Source: Acidobacteriota bacterium
GTDB taxonomy: Bacteria > Actinomycetota > Acidimicrobiia > Acidimicrobiales > RAAP-2
Length of the DNA stretch: 58,815 nt
NCBI GenBank assembly: GCA_018971385.1
Contig: JAGXAY010000004.1
Coordinates: 1 to 58,815 of the forward strand
Direction: 5' to 3'
The notes under the pieces were generated by a model that was not told where the DNA came from, searched no databases, and saw only the letters and a program-made list of their open reading frames with translations. The translations under genes and the position numbers were made by a program. This document shows positions 49,791-58,815 of this stretch, in pieces (positions within the stretch are counted from its first letter, which is position 1; each line of letters starts with the position of its first letter).

Positions 49791-50836
49791 GCCGACTGGA
49801 CCTCGTGGAGCGCCTCGTGCGGATTCCGTCGGTCTCGGAGTCCGAAGGCGCGATCGCCGACGCGGTGGCCGACGAGTTGTCGACGTTCAGCCACCTCTCG
49901 GTCACGCGCATCGGGGACAACGTGATTGCTCACCCGCACGTCGGGGACGCGGTGGTGCTCCTGGTCGCCCACCTCGACACGGTGCCGGGCGACGTGAGTG
50001 AGGTCCGTCGAGACGGGGACACGCTGACGGGCGTGGGGGCGTGTGATACGAAGGGCAGCGTCGCCGGACTCTTGGAGCTCGCTGCGACGAAATGGCCGGT
50101 CCCGGTCACGTACGTCTTCTACGCGCGCGAGGAGATCGCTCGGGCCCGTTCCGGTCTCCTCGAGATCCACGACGTCCGCCCCGACTTACTCTCGGCTCGC
50201 GTGGCCGTGGTGGGAGAGCCGACCCTCGGCGCCGTCGAGGCGGGGTGCCAGGGATCGCTCAGGGTCCGCGTTACTCTTCGGGGAGTCCGGGCTCATACCT
50301 CACGTCCCTTTATGGGAGTGAACGCGATTCATCGTCTCACTTCCGTCCTCGAACGAGTGGCTGACTGGGTGCCGCGCTCGGTCACCCTCGACGGAGTGGA
50401 GTTCACGGAGCAGCTCCAGGTGGTTCGCGTCGAGGGGGGAGTAGCGAACAACGTGGTCCCGGACTTGGCGACCCTCGTCGTCAACTTTCGCTTCGCCCCC
50501 GATCGCTCCGACGAGGACGCGGTGTCGTGGCTCCGTGACTTTCTCGGCGACACTCTCGCCCCCTCCGACCGATTCGAGGTGGACGACCTGGCCCCGGCCG
50601 CGCGACCCCACCTCTCACATCCCGACGTCGCGGACCTGGTTCACGTGAGCGGAACTCCCGCGCGGGCCAAAGTGGGTTGGACGGACGTCGCGACGTTGAG
50701 TGCGTGGGGGGTGCCCTCCGTCAACGTGGGGGCGGGTGATCCCCTGCTCGCTCACTCTCCCGAGGAGTGTCTTCGCGAGAGCGAGATGACCGACTACGTC
50801 ACCACGTTGCGCGAGTGGTTGGAGTCGCGTCGCTAG
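49787..50836 (+). CDS. dapE: Succinyl-diaminopimelate desuccinylase
   Basis: DapE removes succinate to give LL-diaminopimelate. The 349-residue M20 metallopeptidase has the zinc motif LLVAHLDTVPGD, GACDTKGSVAGLLEL, the YAREEIARARSG segment with the catalytic glutamate, GEPTLG, and the C-terminal HSPEECL. A dimerisation domain lies at about 160-265. The GTG at 49787 overlaps dapD. The TAG stop is interlocked with the stop of lexA through the palindrome CTAG. Confidence 0.92.
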   Translation: MSRLDLVERLVRIPSVSESEGAIADAVADELSTFSHLSVTRIGDNVIAHPHVGDAVVLLVAHLDTVPGDVSEVRRDGDTLTGVGACDTKGSVAGLLELAATKWPVPVTYVFYAREEIARARSGLLEIHDVRPDLLSARVAVVGEPTLGAVEAGCQGSLRVRVTLRGVRAHTSRPFMGVNAIHRLTSVLERVADWVPRSVTLDGVEFTEQLQVVRVEGGVANNVVPDLATLVVNFRFAPDRSDEDAVSWLRDFLGDTLAPSDRFEVDDLAPAARPHLSHPDVADLVHVSGTPARAKVGWTDVATLSAWGVPSVNVGAGDPLLAHSPEECLRESEMTDYVTTLREWLESRR

Positions 50837-51453
50837 TAGCGACGAAGGACGGAGATCACTTTCCCGTAGAGTTGCACGTCCTGAGCGTCGAACTCCATCG
50901 GCTCCATGCTCGAGTTTTCGGGCTTGAGGACGATCCGCGACCCCTGAGGGAAGTAGCGCTTGACGGTCGCCTCATCACCGGGAATACCCGCGATGACGAT
51001 GTCCCCGGAGTGCAGATCGTCCCGACGCTCGACGACGACGACATCGCCCGAGAGAATTCCGGCGTCGATCATGGAGTCTCCTCGTACGCGCAGGGCGAAG
51101 GAGTCGCCCCGTCCGGTGAACTCTTCGGGGAGGCTCATCATCTCGTGGTCGGTCTCTTCGGCCAGGACACCGGTACCCGCCGCCACCGCTCCTAAGAAGG
51201 GGATGTCCCGGGTCGCGCCGACGAGGGAGGGGCTGGGGTCCCACTGCACGGTGATGGCGCGGGGCTGCTTGGGGTTTTTGACGATGTAGCCGGCGCTCAC
51301 GAGAACGTCGATGTGATTCTTGACCGTGGCCGGACCAGCTAGTCCCACGTGGGCGGCGATCTCCCTAATCGTCGGGGGGAAGTTGCGCTCGCGCTGGCAC
51401 GCCACGATGTAGTCGAGAATCGCTCGGCGCATTGGAGTGAGTACTTCGGCCAC
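50833..51453 (-). CDS. lexA: LexA repressor, SOS regulator
   Basis: LexA represses DNA-damage genes and cuts itself when RecA is activated. The 206-residue product has the winged-helix N-terminal domain (TPMRRAILDYIVACQRERNFPPTIREIA in parts), the cleavage site Ala92-Gly93, the catalytic Ser127 in RGDSMIDAG and Lys165 in EATVKRYF. The GTG start at 51453 lies 15 bases after an SOS box, and a TAGACT -10 box lies between two SOS boxes, so it is autoregulated. It is convergent with dapE and divergent from livK. Confidence 0.95.
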   Translation of the reverse strand: MAEVLTPMRRAILDYIVACQRERNFPPTIREIAAHVGLAGPATVKNHIDVLVSAGYIVKNPKQPRAITVQWDPSPSLVGATRDIPFLGAVAAGTGVLAEETDHEMMSLPEEFTGRGDSFALRVRGDSMIDAGILSGDVVVVERRDDLHSGDIVIAGIPGDEATVKRYFPQGSRIVLKPENSSMEPMEFDAQDVQLYGKVISVLRRY

Positions 51454-51468: not shown

Positions 51469-51482
51469 CGAACAGACGTTCG
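51469..51482. promoter_or_regulatory. SOS box 1 (LexA operator) upstream of lexA
   Basis: CGAAC-N4-GTTCG with centre AGAC is a perfect match to the operator consensus of Gram-positive and actinobacterial LexA. It lies 15 bases before the lexA start and just downstream of the -10 box, so bound LexA would block its own transcription. Confidence 0.88.
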
Positions 51483-51483
51483 T

Positions 51484-51489
51484 AGTCTA
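51484..51489 (-). promoter_or_regulatory. lexA -10 box
   Basis: On the minus strand this reads TAGACT. TTGTAT, 18 bases further upstream (about 51508-51513), is a candidate -35. The two SOS boxes flank this promoter. Confidence 0.6.
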
Positions 51490-51510
51490 CGTCGGGGGGG
51501 TCCCGTAATA

Positions 51511-51524
51511 CAAACACTTGTTCG
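51511..51524. promoter_or_regulatory. SOS box 2 between lexA and livK
   Basis: CAAAC-N4-GTTCG with centre ACTT differs from the consensus at one base. It overlaps the lexA -35 and stands 168 bases before livK. Cooperative binding with box 1 is plausible. Confidence 0.65.
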
Positions 51525-51691: not shown

Positions 51692-52864
51692 ATGCGTCGT
51701 TTGACAAAGACGGTGGCGGCGATCGCCTCCGGCTCGCTAGCGCTCTTGGCCGTTCCGGCCGTGGGTGTGGCGACGTCGGGTGCGGCACCGAAGCCCACCT
51801 ACACCATCGGTTACCAGGGACCGCTGTCCGGCGGTAACCAGCAGCTGGGTCTGAACATGGTGTTCGCCGTGCAGTTGGCGATTAATCAGGCCAACGCCTC
51901 GGGCAAGTTGCCCTTCGTGCTGAAGCTGAAGACCTTCGACGACCAGGGTGACCCGACGGTTGCTCCGTCGGTCGCGCAGAGCGCCGTGGCTAACAAGAAC
52001 CTCGTCGCCATGGTCGGCCCGGCCTTCTCCGGCGCCACCCAGGCCTCGATGCGTTACTACTTCGCTGCGTCGCTGCCCGTGGTGAGCCCGTCGGCGACTC
52101 GCGTGTCGCTCGCGCACGCCGGCTGGACGGACTTCTTCCGCGTTGTCGCTGACGACGGTGTGCAGGGTCCTGCGGACGCCAACTACGCCGTGAAGAAGTT
52201 GCACGCGAAGAAGGTCTACGTCGTGAACGACGCCAGCTCCTACGGAGCGGGCCTCGCCTCGGCGTTCGCCGCGACTGCGAAGGCTGACCACGCGTCGGTG
52301 ACCGCGGTGACCGTGCCCGGTACGGCCGCCTGCCAGAACGGAACGGCCTCGACCACGGAGTACAGCGCGGCCGCGATTGCCGCGAAGGCCTCCGGTGCGT
52401 CGTTGCTGTTCTACGGTGGTTACTACTGTGACCTCGGTCTGTTCCTGACCCAGCTGCACTCCGTTGGTTACAAGGGTGCCGTGATGTCGGGTGACGGAGC
52501 CAACTCGCCGTCGCTGATCCAGGGCACCACGCCCCACTCGGCGGCTAACGGTGTCTACCTGAGTTGCGCCTGCGCCCAGTCGACCAGCATGGCGTTCAAC
52601 GCTCAGTTCCAGGCCCTGTCCCACTTCAGCGCCGCGACCGCGACCTACGCTCCCGAGTCCTACGACGCGGCGAACGTGATCATTGCGGCGATGAAGTCGC
52701 TCAAGGTGATTAGCCGTAAGAACATCGTGGCGGCGTTGCACAAGATTCACTACATGGGCATGACCAAGGCGATCTCCTTCCAGCCTGACGGCAACATCGC
52801 GGGTGCCGCGATCTACGTCTCTCAGGTGAAGAACGGTCAGATCGTCCAACTCGGTCTCGAGTAG
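51692..52864 (+). CDS. livK: Branched-chain amino acid-type ABC transporter substrate-binding protein
   Basis: The 390-residue exported protein has a Sec signal peptide (about 1-31: basic start, hydrophobic core, GVATSGA end) and a type I periplasmic-binding fold: IGYQGPLSGGNQQLGLNMVFAVQLAINQAN, FDDQGDPTVAPSVAQS-like segments, PAFSGATQASMRYYFA, and YVVNDASSYG. It binds branched-chain or other amino acids, or related small molecules. There is no cysteine at the signal cleavage site, so the usual lipid anchor of Gram-positive binding proteins is missing. It heads the liv operon, and a strong hairpin after it could favour its expression over the membrane genes. AAGGGGAG precedes the ATG. Confidence 0.9.
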   Translation: MRRLTKTVAAIASGSLALLAVPAVGVATSGAAPKPTYTIGYQGPLSGGNQQLGLNMVFAVQLAINQANASGKLPFVLKLKTFDDQGDPTVAPSVAQSAVANKNLVAMVGPAFSGATQASMRYYFAASLPVVSPSATRVSLAHAGWTDFFRVVADDGVQGPADANYAVKKLHAKKVYVVNDASSYGAGLASAFAATAKADHASVTAVTVPGTAACQNGTASTTEYSAAAIAAKASGASLLFYGGYYCDLGLFLTQLHSVGYKGAVMSGDGANSPSLIQGTTPHSAANGVYLSCACAQSTSMAFNAQFQALSHFSAATATYAPESYDAANVIIAAMKSLKVISRKNIVAALHKIHYMGMTKAISFQPDGNIAGAAIYVSQVKNGQIVQLGLE

Positions 52865-52885
52865 TCGACCCTTCATAGCGGTACT

Positions 52886-52920
52886 CGTTGGGGCCGGGGG
52901 CTTTGCTCCCGGCCCCAACG
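52886..52920 (+). terminator. Strong hairpin between livK and livH, partial terminator or mRNA stabiliser
   Basis: CGTTGGGGCCGGG (52886-52898) pairs perfectly with CCCGGCCCCAACG (52908-52920), 13 base pairs. There is no T-run, so read-through is likely. In binding-protein operons such structures raise the level of the first gene over the rest; that is the inferred role. Confidence 0.6.
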
Positions 52921-52965
52921 TATCGGTAGTCCTATTTCCGCCACGTTCATAAGCCGGGGGAGCCC

Positions 52966-53934
52966 GTGATCGCCAGCATTTTGAGTTTTTGGTCCACCCA
53001 CTTCGCACTGATGAAGATTGAGTTTTGGTACCTCGTCGTCAGTGGGATTACCACCGGATTCCTCTACGGCATGGTGGCCGTGGGCTACACCATGGTGTAC
53101 GGCATCCTTCGCCTGATTAACTTCGCCCACTCCGAGATCTTCATGACCGGAGCCTTCGCGGGCTACTTTTTGATGCGGGAGTTCGTGGGGAATAACACCC
53201 CCAGCGGTGTGCAGAGCATCCTTCTCATCCTGGGGGGCATCGCGGTGGGCGCACTCGCGTCCTCATTGATGGCCGCCTTCGTACTCGAACGAGTCGCGTA
53301 TCGTCCGCTGCGTAAGCGCAAAGCGCCACCCTTGGCCTACCTGATTTCCGCCATCGGGGCCTCGTACTTCCTTCAGAATCTCGCGGGCAAGGAGTTCGGG
53401 CGTAACCCGATCGCCGTTCCCCAGCCCTACGGGAACGCCAACGTGTTCACCGTGTTCGGCGCTCCGTTCAACCAGTACGACCTGCTGGTGGTGATCGCCG
53501 GCATTCTCTCTCTCGTGGCTCTCGACATCATCGTCGGGCGTACCAAACTCGGTCGCAGCCTGCGCGCCGTCGCCCAGGATATGGAGACGGCGTCTCTCAT
53601 GGGCGTGGACATCGACCGAACCATCATGTTCACCTTCCTCATCGGGGGGGCCATGGCCGGAGCGGCCGGCTTCCTCTGGGGTCTTAACTCCAACGTCGGG
53701 TCGACGATGGGGTTCGTGCCCGGAATCAAGGCCTTCACCTCGGCCGTGCTCGGCGGAATCGGTAACTTGCGCGGGGCGATGCTCGGCGGAATGATTCTCG
53801 GGATCGTGGAGAACTTGGCCCAGCCCTTCGTCTCCTCGGCCTACATCGACGTGGTGGCCTTCGCCATTCTCGTGGGGCTCTTGATGTTCCGCCCGACGGG
53901 AATCTTGGGTGAGCGTCTCGGGCGGGTTGCCTGA
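52966..53934 (+). CDS. livH: Branched-chain amino acid-type ABC transporter permease LivH
   Basis: The 322-residue permease has about eight membrane helices. Typical LivH stretches are FLYGMVAVGYTMVYGILRLINFAHSEIFM near the start, RPLRKRKAPPLAYLISAIG, and the EAA-like loop DMETASLMGVDIDRTIMFTFLIG. It forms the channel with LivM. The GTG at 52966 follows GGGGGAG. The stop is overlapped by the livM start (TGATG). Confidence 0.93.
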   Translation: MIASILSFWSTHFALMKIEFWYLVVSGITTGFLYGMVAVGYTMVYGILRLINFAHSEIFMTGAFAGYFLMREFVGNNTPSGVQSILLILGGIAVGALASSLMAAFVLERVAYRPLRKRKAPPLAYLISAIGASYFLQNLAGKEFGRNPIAVPQPYGNANVFTVFGAPFNQYDLLVVIAGILSLVALDIIVGRTKLGRSLRAVAQDMETASLMGVDIDRTIMFTFLIGGAMAGAAGFLWGLNSNVGSTMGFVPGIKAFTSAVLGGIGNLRGAMLGGMILGIVENLAQPFVSSAYIDVVAFAILVGLLMFRPTGILGERLGRVA

Positions 53935-55271
53935 TGACGCCGGAACTGCGCGCCCGACTCGGTCGCTTAGCCAGCTTCTTCGCGATCGCCGCCCTCGTGG
54001 CGGTCATGACCGGACCCTCGGGGAGTAACGACTCACCCACTCTGGGCTTCACCCAGTCGTTCGCTCAGCCCTACAGTTACTTCGGGTTGTTTCGGGGTCA
54101 GCGCTGGATGGTGTTTTTGACCCTGGCGCTGGTGGTGCTCGGACTCCACACGCTCTGGCGTCGAGGCGGCTCGGGGGTTCGTAGTAAGGCGCAGTCCTTC
54201 CGTCAGACCTTCGATGCGCCGGGTCGACGTCGGACGAGTGCCCTCAGCGCCTTAGTGGTGGTGGCGGTGGTGGCCCTCCTCGTTCCCCACCTCATCACCA
54301 ACCCGGGTATTCAGAGCGGCATCGTGGAGCAGGTTCTGGCCTACGTCATTCTCGCTCTCGGTCTCAACGTGGTCGTCGGGTGGGCCGGCCTGCTCGACCT
54401 CGGTTACGTCGGTTTCTACGCGATTGGGGCCTACGTCACGGCCTGGATGACCGGTCGACTCCCAATCGCCGCACCCTTTCACCACCCAGTGAGTTCCTTC
54501 GCCGCTATTCCCGTTGCCATCGTCTTCACCATGCTGGCCGGGGTGATCCTGGGTGCGCCGACCCTTCGCCTGCGCGGTGACTACTTGGCGATCGTGACCC
54601 TCGGCTTCGGTGAGATCATTCTCGTCTTCTCTAACAATCTGACCAACGTGACGGGTGGAGCGCAGGGAACCAATCCCTATATTCCCTCCTTCACCTTCCG
54701 CATCGGGGGAATTAAGTACCTCTTCGGAAACGTGGGCTACTACTTCCTCGTGGCCGGATTTGTCGCCGCGACCATCGTGCTCTTTCGCCTCCTCGAACAC
54801 TCCCGCGTGGGTCGCGCCTGGACGGCGATTCGTGAGGACGAGGTGGCGGCCGAGTCCATCGGTATTAACCCGCTCAAGTACAAGGTGATGGCCTTCGCCA
54901 TTGGCGCCTCCGTCTCTGGTTTCGCCGGGGCGGTCACCGCCAGTCAGATCGGGGTCGTCTACCCGAACACCTTCTCCCTCTACTTCTCGGTGAACGTCCT
55001 CACACTCGTCATCTTTGGCGGTATGGGGTCGATTCTCGGGGTCATCGTCGGCAGCGTGCTCGTCCAGGGCATCGCCGTGTACTTACGTTTCTACCCGCCG
55101 TCGGGTTATCAGGCGAGTGACCTCTACATGTACCTCGGGGCCCTCCTCATCATGATGATGATCTACCGTCCGGCGGGACTGGTCCCCTCGAAGCGTCGAC
55201 GACGAGAGATCCGCCAAGCCGAGGCGGGTATTGGGCACGAGGGTGACGTCTTGTTGGGAGAACAGCCGTGA
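53934..55271 (+). CDS. livM: Branched-chain amino acid-type ABC transporter permease LivM
   Basis: The 445-residue permease is longer than livH and has about ten helices. The first about 110 residues include two hydrophobic segments and a soluble loop before the conserved core (YVILALGLNVVVGWAGLLDLGYVGFYAIGAY). The EAA-like loop ALREDEVAAESIGI is present here as IREDEVAAESIGINPLKYK, followed by IFGGMGSILGV. The C-terminus is cytosolic and basic then acidic. Both ends overlap neighbours, in keeping with operon expression. Confidence 0.93.
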   Translation: MTPELRARLGRLASFFAIAALVAVMTGPSGSNDSPTLGFTQSFAQPYSYFGLFRGQRWMVFLTLALVVLGLHTLWRRGGSGVRSKAQSFRQTFDAPGRRRTSALSALVVVAVVALLVPHLITNPGIQSGIVEQVLAYVILALGLNVVVGWAGLLDLGYVGFYAIGAYVTAWMTGRLPIAAPFHHPVSSFAAIPVAIVFTMLAGVILGAPTLRLRGDYLAIVTLGFGEIILVFSNNLTNVTGGAQGTNPYIPSFTFRIGGIKYLFGNVGYYFLVAGFVAATIVLFRLLEHSRVGRAWTAIREDEVAAESIGINPLKYKVMAFAIGASVSGFAGAVTASQIGVVYPNTFSLYFSVNVLTLVIFGGMGSILGVIVGSVLVQGIAVYLRFYPPSGYQASDLYMYLGALLIMMMIYRPAGLVPSKRRRREIRQAEAGIGHEGDVLLGEQP

Positions 55272-56074
55272 GCGATCTCGTCTTTGACGTGAAGAACGTG
55301 ACGCTGCGCTTCGGTGGCGTGGTGTCACTGAACGACGTGACCATGGAGCACCGTCGGGGGGAGATTCTGGCCGTCATTGGTCCGAACGGCGCCGGGAAGA
55401 CCTCCCTCTTCAACTCCCTCACCGGGGTCTATCGTCCCCAGGAGGGCACGATCACGTTGAGTGCGCGCGAGGGGCACCCCATCTCGGTGATTGGACGAGG
55501 TGCCCACCGCATCGCGGCGGCGGGCGTCGCGCGGACGTTCCAGGCGTCCCGTATGTTCTCCGCGCTCACCACCTTCGAGAACGTGAAGATTGGCGCGGAG
55601 TCGCACCGAGGTATTGGAGCGGTCGGCGCCATGCTCCGGGGTCCGGCGACGCGCCGGGACGAGAAGGCTTCCGACGACAAGACCATGGAGCTTCTCGAGT
55701 TCGTAGGACTGAAGGATCAGGCGAACGTTCTTTCCGCGTCACTCAGCTACGGGGCTCGCCGACGTCTGGAGATTGCTCGAGGGTTGGCGACCAGTCCGGT
55801 CGCCCTCCTCCTCGACGAGCCGGCGGCCGGGACGAACCCCGCGGAGAAGTTGGAACTCGCCAATCTGATTCGTCGCGTGCGCGACGAGTTGGGTGTCACG
55901 ATTCTCCTCATCGAGCACGACATGAAACTCGTCATGTCGGTGGCCGAGCGGCTCTACGTGCTGAACTTTGGATCGGTCATCGCGACGGGTACCCCGGAGG
56001 AGATTCGCGCCAACCCCGCCGTGATCGAGGCCTACCTCGGCAGCAGTGAGACTCAGACTTCGGAGGCTTCGTGA
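55268..56074 (+). CDS. livG: ABC transporter ATP-binding protein LivG
   Basis: The 268-residue ATPase has Walker A GPNGAGKTSLFN near residue 38, the LivG-type long insert after the Q-loop (ARTFQASRMFSALTTFENV), a signature motif degenerate to LSYGARRRLEIARGLA, and Walker B LLLDEPAAGTNP. It powers the importer together with LivF. The GTG at 55268 overlaps livM by four bases. A C-terminal Ser/Thr/Glu-rich tail is short. Confidence 0.93.
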   Translation: MSDLVFDVKNVTLRFGGVVSLNDVTMEHRRGEILAVIGPNGAGKTSLFNSLTGVYRPQEGTITLSAREGHPISVIGRGAHRIAAAGVARTFQASRMFSALTTFENVKIGAESHRGIGAVGAMLRGPATRRDEKASDDKTMELLEFVGLKDQANVLSASLSYGARRRLEIARGLATSPVALLLDEPAAGTNPAEKLELANLIRRVRDELGVTILLIEHDMKLVMSVAERLYVLNFGSVIATGTPEEIRANPAVIEAYLGSSETQTSEAS

Positions 56075-56814
56075 TGTTGACGGTAACGGACGCGGTCGTA
56101 CGCTACGGATCGATTACGGCCCTGCACGGCATCAGCTTCGAGGTCGCTCAGGGTGAGATTGTGACTCTGCTCGGGGCGAACGGTGCAGGTAAGTCGACCA
56201 CCCTGCGCATGCTCTCTGGACTTCACGCGCCCCAGGAGGGTCGGGTGGAGTTCGAGGGGCGAGACATCTCCCGTTTGAAGGCGCACGAACTCTCAAGTCT
56301 CGGTATCGCCCACGTGCCGGAGGGTCGTCGGATCTTTCCTCAAATGACCGTCGAGGAGAATCTCGACATGGGAGCCTTCACTCGTAAAGGGTCCTACGGA
56401 GACGACCTCGAGCGGATGTACGGCATGTTCCCTATTCTGAAGGATCGCCGCAAGCAACTGGGCGGCAACCTCTCCGGTGGCGAGCAGCAGATGCTGGCGA
56501 TTGGCCGGGCGCTCATGTCACGACCCCGCATGATTTTGTTGGACGAGCCCTCGATGGGTCTCGCCCCCATGATCATCGACCAGATCTTCCGGATTATCGC
56601 CGAGATTCGTGACGGGGGTATGACGGTGCTCGTGGTGGAGCAGAACGCCTCGCAGGCCCTCCGTTTGGCCGACCGGGGATACGTCATGGAGAACGGTCGC
56701 ATCGTCCTCGCCGACGACGCGAAGCGGCTTCTCGTCGACCCGCGAGTGCGGGCGGTCTACCTCGGCGAAGAGGTCGAGTCGGTGGAGAGTACGCCCGAGA
56801 CTTCCGGCGACTAA
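56071..56814 (+). CDS. livF: ABC transporter ATP-binding protein LivF
   Basis: The 247-residue ATPase has Walker A GANGAGKSTTLRML, signature NLSGGEQQMLAIGRALM, Walker B ILLDEPSMGLAP and the H-loop-region glutamine in VVEQNASQALRLADRGYVMENGR, all LivF-like. The start is GTG at 56071, sharing GTGA with livG; the ATG at 56074 is an equal alternative. A perfect hairpin follows the TAA directly. Confidence 0.93.
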   Translation: MMLTVTDAVVRYGSITALHGISFEVAQGEIVTLLGANGAGKSTTLRMLSGLHAPQEGRVEFEGRDISRLKAHELSSLGIAHVPEGRRIFPQMTVEENLDMGAFTRKGSYGDDLERMYGMFPILKDRRKQLGGNLSGGEQQMLAIGRALMSRPRMILLDEPSMGLAPMIIDQIFRIIAEIRDGGMTVLVVEQNASQALRLADRGYVMENGRIVLADDAKRLLVDPRVRAVYLGEEVESVESTPETSGD

Positions 56815-56815
56815 T

Positions 56816-56844
56816 CCTTCGACGACCGTTGTGGTCGTCGAAGG
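56816..56844 (+). terminator. Perfect 12-bp hairpin after livF that also covers the next Shine-Dalgarno
   Basis: CCTTCGACGACC (56816-56827) pairs with GGTCGTCGAAGG (56833-56844) around a 5-base loop. No T-run follows. It may end the liv transcript by a U-less mechanism, or protect its 3' end. Its right arm contains the AAGG of AAGGAG (56841-56846), the ribosome-binding site of the next gene, so folding would restrain that gene's translation. Confidence 0.6.
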
Positions 56845-56851
56845 AGAATGT

Positions 56852-57565
56852 GTGGATGAGTCCCTAGCGCCCTGTTGGAACGACGTCGTGGACGTCCTGG
56901 CGAGCGGCGTGCGACGCCTCTTGCTCTTCGGTCCGCCGGGACTCGGGAAGACCTACGCGGCCCTGCGGCTCGCGACCTCGGGGCCGGCGGAGCGACTGAC
57001 CTGCACGGAGGACTTGACCAGTGCGGAGGTCACCGGATCCTGGATGCCGGTCGGCTCGGGACGATGGGAGTGGCGCGAGGGTCCCGGCATCCGGGCCTGG
57101 CGCGCGAACGAGGGTCGGGGTGGTCGCCTCGTGGTGGACGAGGCCGACCGGGCGTCGGGTGACGCCCTCTCCACCCTCCTTCTCATCTGCGACTCGCCCG
57201 ATTCGGCCAGGTGGCGTCACCCCGAGTCCGGCGAGTGGGTGAAGCCCGGCGAGGAGTTCACCGCCGTGGTGACGACCAACTCACCGACGCTCGAGGAGAT
57301 CCCCGTCGCTCTGCGCGACCGCTTTCCGGTCGCCATCTACATCGACCGGCCCCACCCCGGGGCCCTGCAGAGCCTGTCGGAGGACCTCAAGGCCCCCGCC
57401 CTCGCCGGCGCGCTCGGTGGGGACGACCGCTACGTCTCCCTGCGTTCCTACTACGCCTTCGACGCCCTGCGCGCTCGCGTGGGGGCCGAGCGCGCCGCGT
57501 CTCTGGTCTTTGGTCCACGAGCCGAGGCGATCCTGGACGCCCTCACGATCGGTTCTCTCGGGTGA
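56852..57565 (+). CDS. Second MoxR-type AAA+ ATPase, small form
   Basis: The 237-residue product has Walker A GPPGLGKT at 27-34, Walker B LVVDEADR at 93-100, a sensor asparagine in TTNSPTLEE (Asn143) and the LRDRFPV arginine-finger region. It lacks the extended lid of longer MoxR proteins. The segment LTSAEVTGSWMPVGSG is typical for the MoxR/CbbQ branch. The GTG at 56852 is chosen because AAGGAG at 56841-56846 precedes it; a GTG at 56831 would lie in the hairpin loop. The stop overlaps the next gene by four bases, so the ATPase and the HExxH-VWA protein form a functional pair. Confidence 0.82.
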   Translation: MDESLAPCWNDVVDVLASGVRRLLLFGPPGLGKTYAALRLATSGPAERLTCTEDLTSAEVTGSWMPVGSGRWEWREGPGIRAWRANEGRGGRLVVDEADRASGDALSTLLLICDSPDSARWRHPESGEWVKPGEEFTAVVTTNSPTLEEIPVALRDRFPVAIYIDRPHPGALQSLSEDLKAPALAGALGGDDRYVSLRSYYAFDALRARVGAERAASLVFGPRAEAILDALTIGSLG

Positions 57566-58815
57566 GCCCGGTCTACCCGGAACTGGTGGGGGCGAGTCGG
57601 GGACTGCCCTTAGAGGGGGGCTGGCGAGTCGAGGAGGGATCGGCCCGTCGAGGAGACGCCTACTGCGACTTCCCCCGTCGTTCGCTGCGGGTACCGGTGG
57701 GGCCGGGGGAGCGCGAGAGATTGGTTCGAGCTCACGAGCTCATGCACCTACGGATCTCTCCCGACGCCACGGTGCCGGAGGGGCTCCTCACCTCCACCAC
57801 CGCGCGGGCCCGGGACTGCGCCGAAGAGTATCGAGTGAATCGGGCCCTCGGACTGCTCGGACTCGAGACGGAGTACTTGAGTGACGGGAGTGAACGCGAG
57901 GGTGGGCGACTTCTTGCCGAACAGGGCGACTGGACCGAAGCCGTGTGCTTCTACCTGGCCGTTCGGGGAACGGGTGGTGAGTCTAGCTACCTGAAGGGGA
58001 TCGCTCGAGTGCGCAGTCCCTGGGCGAAGTCGTTGCGGGAGATGGGGCGACGACTAGACGAACTCGACGCCGAGGTGGACCTCTCGGGCATGTGCGACGT
58101 GACCCTCGACGACGACGGGTGTCCGCGGGGGTACCGACTCTTTACGTTGCGAGTCGCGGAGTTGGCGACGAGAACCCTCCAGGCGGCGTCGCCCGAGGAC
58201 CTGGAGGACGTCAAGCGACTTCGCCGGTCCTTCGCCCCCGGGGCCCGTCGCGCGCCCTCCGGGGTCTTCGCCCCACTCGTGTGGCGTGACGTGGAGGGAG
58301 AGGGCGTCGATATCAGTCGGGGGCGCCGTCGGGGTCGGTCGAGTTGTTCCGGATCATCTCTGCGCTATCCCGTTCGACTGCTGACCGACCCCTACGCCCG
58401 GGCATTCTCTTCCGGATTTCGCCGGGGCGGGGGTGTGGTGATTCTGGACCAGTCCGGATCGATGGACTTGACTCGAGAGGACGTCGAGGGGGTCGCTCGT
58501 CGGGCCCCGGGCGCCTGGGTGATCGGGTACTCCCATCGCCCGGGCGATCCGGGGGTGACTCCCAACGCCTGGATTCTCGCCGGTCCACGGGGGGTGGCGC
58601 GGGATATTCCGAGTGGCAACGTCGGAAACGGAGTGGACGGACCGGTGCTCGAGTACGCGGTGCGGCTCAATCGTGGGGGCGGCCGAATCTACTGGGTCAG
58701 TGACGGCCAGGTCACCGACTCCCACGATCATCCGAGTGGGGACCTCAGCCGAGAGTGCGCACTTGTCCTGCTGCGCCACCGAATTACCCCCGTGCGCTCC
58801 GTCGCTGAGATCGGA
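57562..58815 (+). CDS. HExxH motif plus VWA-like domain protein, partial at window end
   Basis: From the GTG at 57562 the frame is open to the last base, giving 418 residues without a stop. The motif HELMH at 58-62 is an HExxH zinc-peptidase signature, and EEYRVN about 25 residues later could supply the third ligand as in gluzincins. The C-terminal part has a VWA MIDAS start DQSGSM at 296-301 in GVVILDQSGSMD, and a later VSDGQVTD loop. There is no signal peptide. The layout recalls the predicted metallopeptidase/VWA proteins of the DUF2201 (COG3864) group, which are linked to MoxR ATPases. Family membership is inferred and the end of the protein is missing. It is coupled to the preceding ATPase. 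Confidence 0.75.
   Translation, partial: MSPVYPELVGASRGLPLEGGWRVEEGSARRGDAYCDFPRRSLRVPVGPGERERLVRAHELMHLRISPDATVPEGLLTSTTARARDCAEEYRVNRALGLLGLETEYLSDGSEREGGRLLAEQGDWTEAVCFYLAVRGTGGESSYLKGIARVRSPWAKSLREMGRRLDELDAEVDLSGMCDVTLDDDGCPRGYRLFTLRVAELATRTLQAASPEDLEDVKRLRRSFAPGARRAPSGVFAPLVWRDVEGEGVDISRGRRRGRSSCSGSSLRYPVRLLTDPYARAFSSGFRRGGGVVILDQSGSMDLTREDVEGVARRAPGAWVIGYSHRPGDPGVTPNAWILAGPRGVARDIPSGNVGNGVDGPVLEYAVRLNRGGGRIYWVSDGQVTDSHDHPSGDLSRECALVLLRHRITPVRSVAEIG

Follow-up and report, generated by a model that had tools for sequence, protein, structure and literature searches.

A phage-type AAA+ ATPase and zincin-VWA gene pair is a fixed chromosomal feature of one bacterial genus

Introduction

The systems closest to the gene pair reported here were described in phages. 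Group 2.2 jumbo phages carry a MoxR gene adjacent to that of a vWA protein whose N-terminal domain is a metallopeptidase (ASV44729.1, ASV44728.2), and a role in virion assembly was proposed for the two products (PMC7824862). The architecture, as described there, matches that of our pair; whereas virion assembly was proposed for the jumbo-phage proteins, those neighbors of our viral homologs that could be annotated are replication-type genes. CobT-like proteins of Gordonia, Tsukamurella, and Rhodococcus phages (e.g., GMA7) also resemble our pair in having a C-terminal VWA domain and, where it was seen, an upstream ATPase gene, and six of six examined contain an N-terminal HExxH followed by a later E-[ED]-x-R motif. 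They differ in their size (600-860 aa), give no tblastn match to our protein, and show weak profile similarity to it. A related motif may also occur at the N terminus of bacterial CobT. Judging from these motifs, the CobT label on the Gordonia and Tsukamurella phage proteins may be misleading because L214 and L234-L238, which are annotated as CobT-like or hypothetical, have both the N-terminal HExxH and the later E-[ED]-x-R.

Proteins of DUF2201/COG3864 (PF13203 plus PF09967) likewise have a zincin-like domain followed by a VWA domain, and an AAA ATPase gene adjoins at least one example; their profiles, however, fail to match our protein. The RavA-ViaA, NorQ-NorD, and CbbQ-CbbO systems combine an AAA+ ring ATPase with a MIDAS VWA partner, as does our pair, although we know of no HExxH zincin domain in any of them. 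Minigluzincins such as selecase (4qhi) and jannalysin (4jix) share the small HExxH-plus-Glu protease fold; to our knowledge, neither these nor Wss1 contain a VWA domain. Wss1 cooperates with the AAA+ ATPase Cdc48 in clearing genotoxic conjugates (PMC4559962). Here we analyze a pair at the end of a 58,815-bp stretch of DNA (the window), which is a whole contig.

Results

The positions of the two genes, their motifs, and the neighboring features are compiled in Table 1. As the preliminary description had stated, the genes overlap by four bases (GTGA), with the GTG start at 57562 running into the TGA stop at 57563-57565. The second gene is truncated at its 3' end because the contig stops at 58815; compared with full-length relatives (about 443-458 aa; 444 aa in the closest, L032), ∼26 residues are missing, including a conserved FGRVG motif. 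A homolog of the zincin-VWA protein was present in 53 of 60 genomes sampled from the same genus, which argues against a chance origin of the gene pair and its motifs. Genomes without a homolog were mostly lower-completeness assemblies, with one that is 95% complete. Wherever the stretch had room, the ATPase gene lay directly upstream of the zincin-VWA gene in the genus loci, mostly with the same four-base overlap. The reading frames of the pair were intact genus-wide, assembly gaps aside, and two seemingly short copies were themselves such gaps. Single-sequence scanning of the genome contigs, a method that reaches close relatives only, returned one locus. A 9-base leader element, CGACCGTTG, was found about 6-17 bases 5' of the ATPase ribosome-binding site in same-genus loci; it was exact in 35 of 51 and had at most one mismatch in 48 of 51 (shuffled leaders, about 1%). 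The element was also considered as a regulon marker and rejected, its long form GCGACCGTTGNG occurring only three times in its own genome and never at the pair.

Table 1. Features of the gene pair and its surroundings in the window
Feature	Position	Strand	Remarks
lexA	50833..51453	-	Likely ancestral neighbor of the pair in the genus
Two LexA-box-like sites, GAACAGACGTTC at 51470 and AAACACTTGTTC at 51512	51470..51523	.	Between lexA and livJ
livJHMGF operon	51692..56814	+	Lies between lexA and the pair here; variable across the genus
Conserved leader element CGACCGTTG	56823..56831	+	5' of the ATPase ribosome-binding site; belongs to hairpin 56816-56844 in the window
AAA+ ATPase (AAA_5 type)	56852..57565	+	Genus and phage proteins conserve Walker A, Walker B, sensor-1 Asn, and the arginine-finger region
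Zincin-VWA protein gene	57562..58815	+	Encodes 418 residues up to the contig end, which truncates it at the 3' side; complete protein about 444 aa
HELMH, H58-H62	57733..57747	+	On helix 50-65 of the model
EEYRVN, E88-N93 (within C86-A-E-E-Y-R-V-N93)	57823..57840	+	Helix 81-98 carries E89, the best candidate for a third metal ligand
MIDAS motif 1, DQSGSM, D296-M301	58447..58464	+	From translation and conservation
DGQVTD, D381-D386	58702..58719	+	Conserved Asp of the VWA domain

Translation placed HELMH at H58-H62 and the MIDAS motif DQSGSM from D296 onward, in agreement with the residue numbers (near 60 and 296) given earlier. A possible third zinc ligand had been proposed within EEYRVN; a conserved Glu indeed lies there on the next helix, but the best candidate is E89, not E88, which is Asp in one genus protein, whereas E89 is replaced in none. 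H58, E59, H62, S66, P67, E89, R91, N93, DQSGSM, and DGQVTD were invariant in 46 aligned genus proteins, and all 49 full-length genus homologs had HExxH plus E89 intact. Both the DxSxS and the later conserved Asp are present, as expected of a VWA domain with a MIDAS. AlphaFold2 modeled the full-length relative L032 with a mean pLDDT of 90.8 (95.4 for the N-terminal part alone) and low confidence in the inter-domain linker (approximately residues 241-260). Examining the HELMH in a predicted structure had been suggested earlier; in this model, helix 50-65 carries HELxH and the following helix 81-98 carries E89, as in gluzincins. Sequence and model agree on the arrangement typical of that group, in which the Glu ligand sits on a helix that follows the HExxH helix. 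In fold searches with the N-terminal part, the top-probability protease matches were the minigluzincins named above, these being weak (0.35-0.54, E above 3), and no solved protease had a significant E-value. The VWA part also matched weakly, with the integrin alpha2 I domain (probability 0.92), ANTXR1 (0.85), and NorD among the matches and no E below 0.03. We conclude that the protein is probably an N-terminal zinc metallopeptidase joined to a MIDAS VWA domain and coupled to the AAA+ ATPase.

No Pfam or NCBIfam model matched the zincin-VWA protein, and the 46 genus members gave no convincing match to any VWA or metallopeptidase model. The preliminary description had filed the protein with the DUF2201/COG3864 type and suggested searches against PF13203 and PF09967; neither profile matched the protein or the 46 members at E ≤ 1, PF13203 had no match in the protein's own genome, and a profile comparison with DUF2201 aligned only the VWA parts, weakly (probability 63). 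Membership in DUF2201 was therefore rejected. CobT membership was rejected as well, PF06213 giving no match. The label "MoxR ATPase" was right in that the upstream gene encodes an AAA+ ATPase, which passed AAA_5 (PF07728) with 53.8 bits versus a cut-off of 22 (E 2.7e-14), but AAA_3 (PF07726), the model for MoxR proper, reached 16.8 bits versus a cut-off of 27. Sequence matches of the ATPase in the PDB include midasin and CbbQ. PHROG families 33218 (E 2.1e-23, VWA part only) and 16448 (E 6e-28) matched the two proteins, and the ATPase also matched phrog_249 (porphyrin biosynthesis). PADLOC reported no defense system at the pair.

Profile searching recovered 97 viral contigs with relatives of the zincin-VWA protein. 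Full-length homologs preceded by the ATPase gene were among them. The ATPase gene was adjacent for 63 of 68 distinct viral proteins, the others having no room (two) or long overlaps in crude gene calls (three). Terminase was present in 8 of the 19 viral contigs tested, including the four longest. Most neighbors of the viral homologs were without annotation, and those that could be annotated were of the replication type (primase, SNF2-type helicase). A viral protein in BFVD matched along its length by fold (E 5e-18). Neither the window protein nor the ATPase nor any of three viral homologs matched an isolate phage by tblastn; plasmids yielded no match either, and a profile search of 298 genomes of the order and 396 of the phylum returned no other host genus with the family. 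In an unrooted tree of 70 proteins, the genus formed a single clade (SH-aLRT 100) among the phage proteins. Within these samples, a pair otherwise found in uncultivated (tailed) phages is now a fixed chromosomal feature of one bacterial genus.

HExxH was kept in 49 of the 68 phage homologs, all 49 of which have E or D at position 89. Among the 19 homologs without HExxH, the acid at position 89 was also gone in 14, while that at position 88 was mostly retained; the MIDAS DxSxS was retained in 68 of 68. The tree requires at least six changes for each trait (HExxH and the acid at 89), and about six losses of the zinc site are counted in phages. Covariation of HExxH with E89 amounts to only about three independent pairs on well-supported branches; it is therefore suggestive, not significant by itself. 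Because the homologs lacking the zinc site keep the VWA domain, cleavage is not required for every function. Natural inactive variants, with the zinc site lost and the MIDAS kept, include L117, L118, L121, L124, L172, L186, L196, L199, L200, and L201 along with others.

LexA is the master regulator of the response to DNA damage. The gene order in the genus is lexA (reverse), the pair, a LysM protein, nrdR, PIG-L, and dinB; two sibling genera of the family have lexA, LysM, nrdR, PIG-L, and dinB in succession and lack the pair (one sibling contig begins after lexA). Another family of the order has lexA, LysM, and nrdR consecutive without the pair, and LexA-box-like sites, assigned as elsewhere in this study by sequence pattern, lie between lexA and LysM. 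Within the genus, nearly all genomes examined have two such sites immediately after the pair, ahead of LysM; two are also located beside lexA. The ATPase gene is divergent from lexA in at least 11 genomes (L005, L011, L013, L020, L027, L028, L030, L056, L059, L062, and L063), where both lexA-side sites are <200 bases from the ATPase start. In other genomes, including that of the window, livJHMGF or other genes intervene; genus-wide SOS control was considered but is not claimed because the lexA-side boxes are then kilobases away. Relative to lexA, the liv operon is found on one side in some genomes of the genus and on the other side in others (L034 versus L033). The earlier remark that a location after a liv operon gives no hint was thus incomplete: the pair sits in the lexA locus genus-wide, and the operon is a variable neighbor. 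We assigned the LysM protein by inspecting its sequence (no Pfam match at E 1e-4); by position and layout it is likened to the SOS division inhibitors YneA and ChiZ (PMC13396833). The genus neighborhoods contained none of the other phage genes that would be expected around a prophage, and no cobalamin genes among the conserved neighbors.

Discussion

With a probability of about 0.6, we read the locus as a phage-type AAA+/zincin-VWA remodeling protease pair, composed of a gluzincin-type domain, a short flexible linker, and a MIDAS VWA domain next to the ATPase, that was acquired once by the ancestor of the genus. The VWA domain would capture a client via its MIDAS metal, a ring formed by the ATPase would then remodel the complex, and the zincin domain, with its putative zinc ion, would make a limited cut in the client. 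The zincin-VWA protein is likely to be a working, if putative, protease. Acquisition most likely took place at the lexA/LysM intergenic site, and we infer its direction from phage to host; since the tree is unrooted, it would also accommodate transfer from host to phage.

The main rival is a remodeling chaperone pair of the RavA-ViaA, NorQ-NorD, or CbbQ-CbbO kind, whose zincin-like domain would be structural or client-binding and not a protease. Such a pair would fit with the retention of DxSxS in every phage homolog, including the 19 that have lost HExxH, with NorD among the weak VWA fold matches, and with CbbQ and midasin among the PDB matches of the ATPase. The intact HExxH and E89 of all 49 full-length genus proteins argue against it, since they include the catalytic Glu, which would be superfluous for a purely structural zinc site, and we regard the chaperone as possible but on the unlikely side. 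An ordinary, vertically inherited metallopeptidase-VWA member of DUF2201/COG3864 would share the domain order and have a comparable series of motifs, with HExxH preceding a helix that bears an acid and Asn. The failure of PF13203 and PF09967 to match, the alignment of VWA parts only, and the confinement of the family to one genus in the order and phylum samples make this origin very improbable.

A metal chelatase pair like CobS-CobT has hardly better prospects. The phrog_249 match of the ATPase and the CobT-like annotation of the distantly similar Gordonia phage proteins point toward it; PF06213 is without a match, a CobT-annotated phage protein (nickie) lacks HExxH, and cobalamin genes are missing from the conserved neighbors, so that we give this idea little credence. 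Least probable is a passive prophage remnant or an anti-phage defense pair, which the existence of phage relatives could suggest, but the conserved synteny with lexA, LysM, nrdR, PIG-L, and dinB, the lack of other phage genes nearby, the absence of a PADLOC system, and the intact frames across the genus, assembly gaps aside, speak against either. Returning to the remodeling protease pair, a more specific scenario is that the lexA locus took up a phage AAA+ metalloprotease machine, which would now act in the SOS response, e.g., by clearing a damage-related client or the neighboring LysM protein; we hold this to be rather doubtful.

The kind of pair is already known, its architecture having been described in jumbo phages (PMC7824862) and being present in the Gordonia-type CobT-like phage proteins. 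Our literature search did not find a genus-wide chromosomal form at the lexA locus, and this form appears to be undescribed. Couples of AAA+ and VWA proteins are widespread, few have known clients, and no tested function of zincin-bearing versions was found in the literature searched. Natural variants that have lost the zinc site allow the protease to be told apart from the remodeling function, and one functional hypothesis can be tested directly thanks to the position in the lexA locus. The chromosomal copy, kept genus-wide, suggests that a phage-type module can turn into a stable component of the cell.
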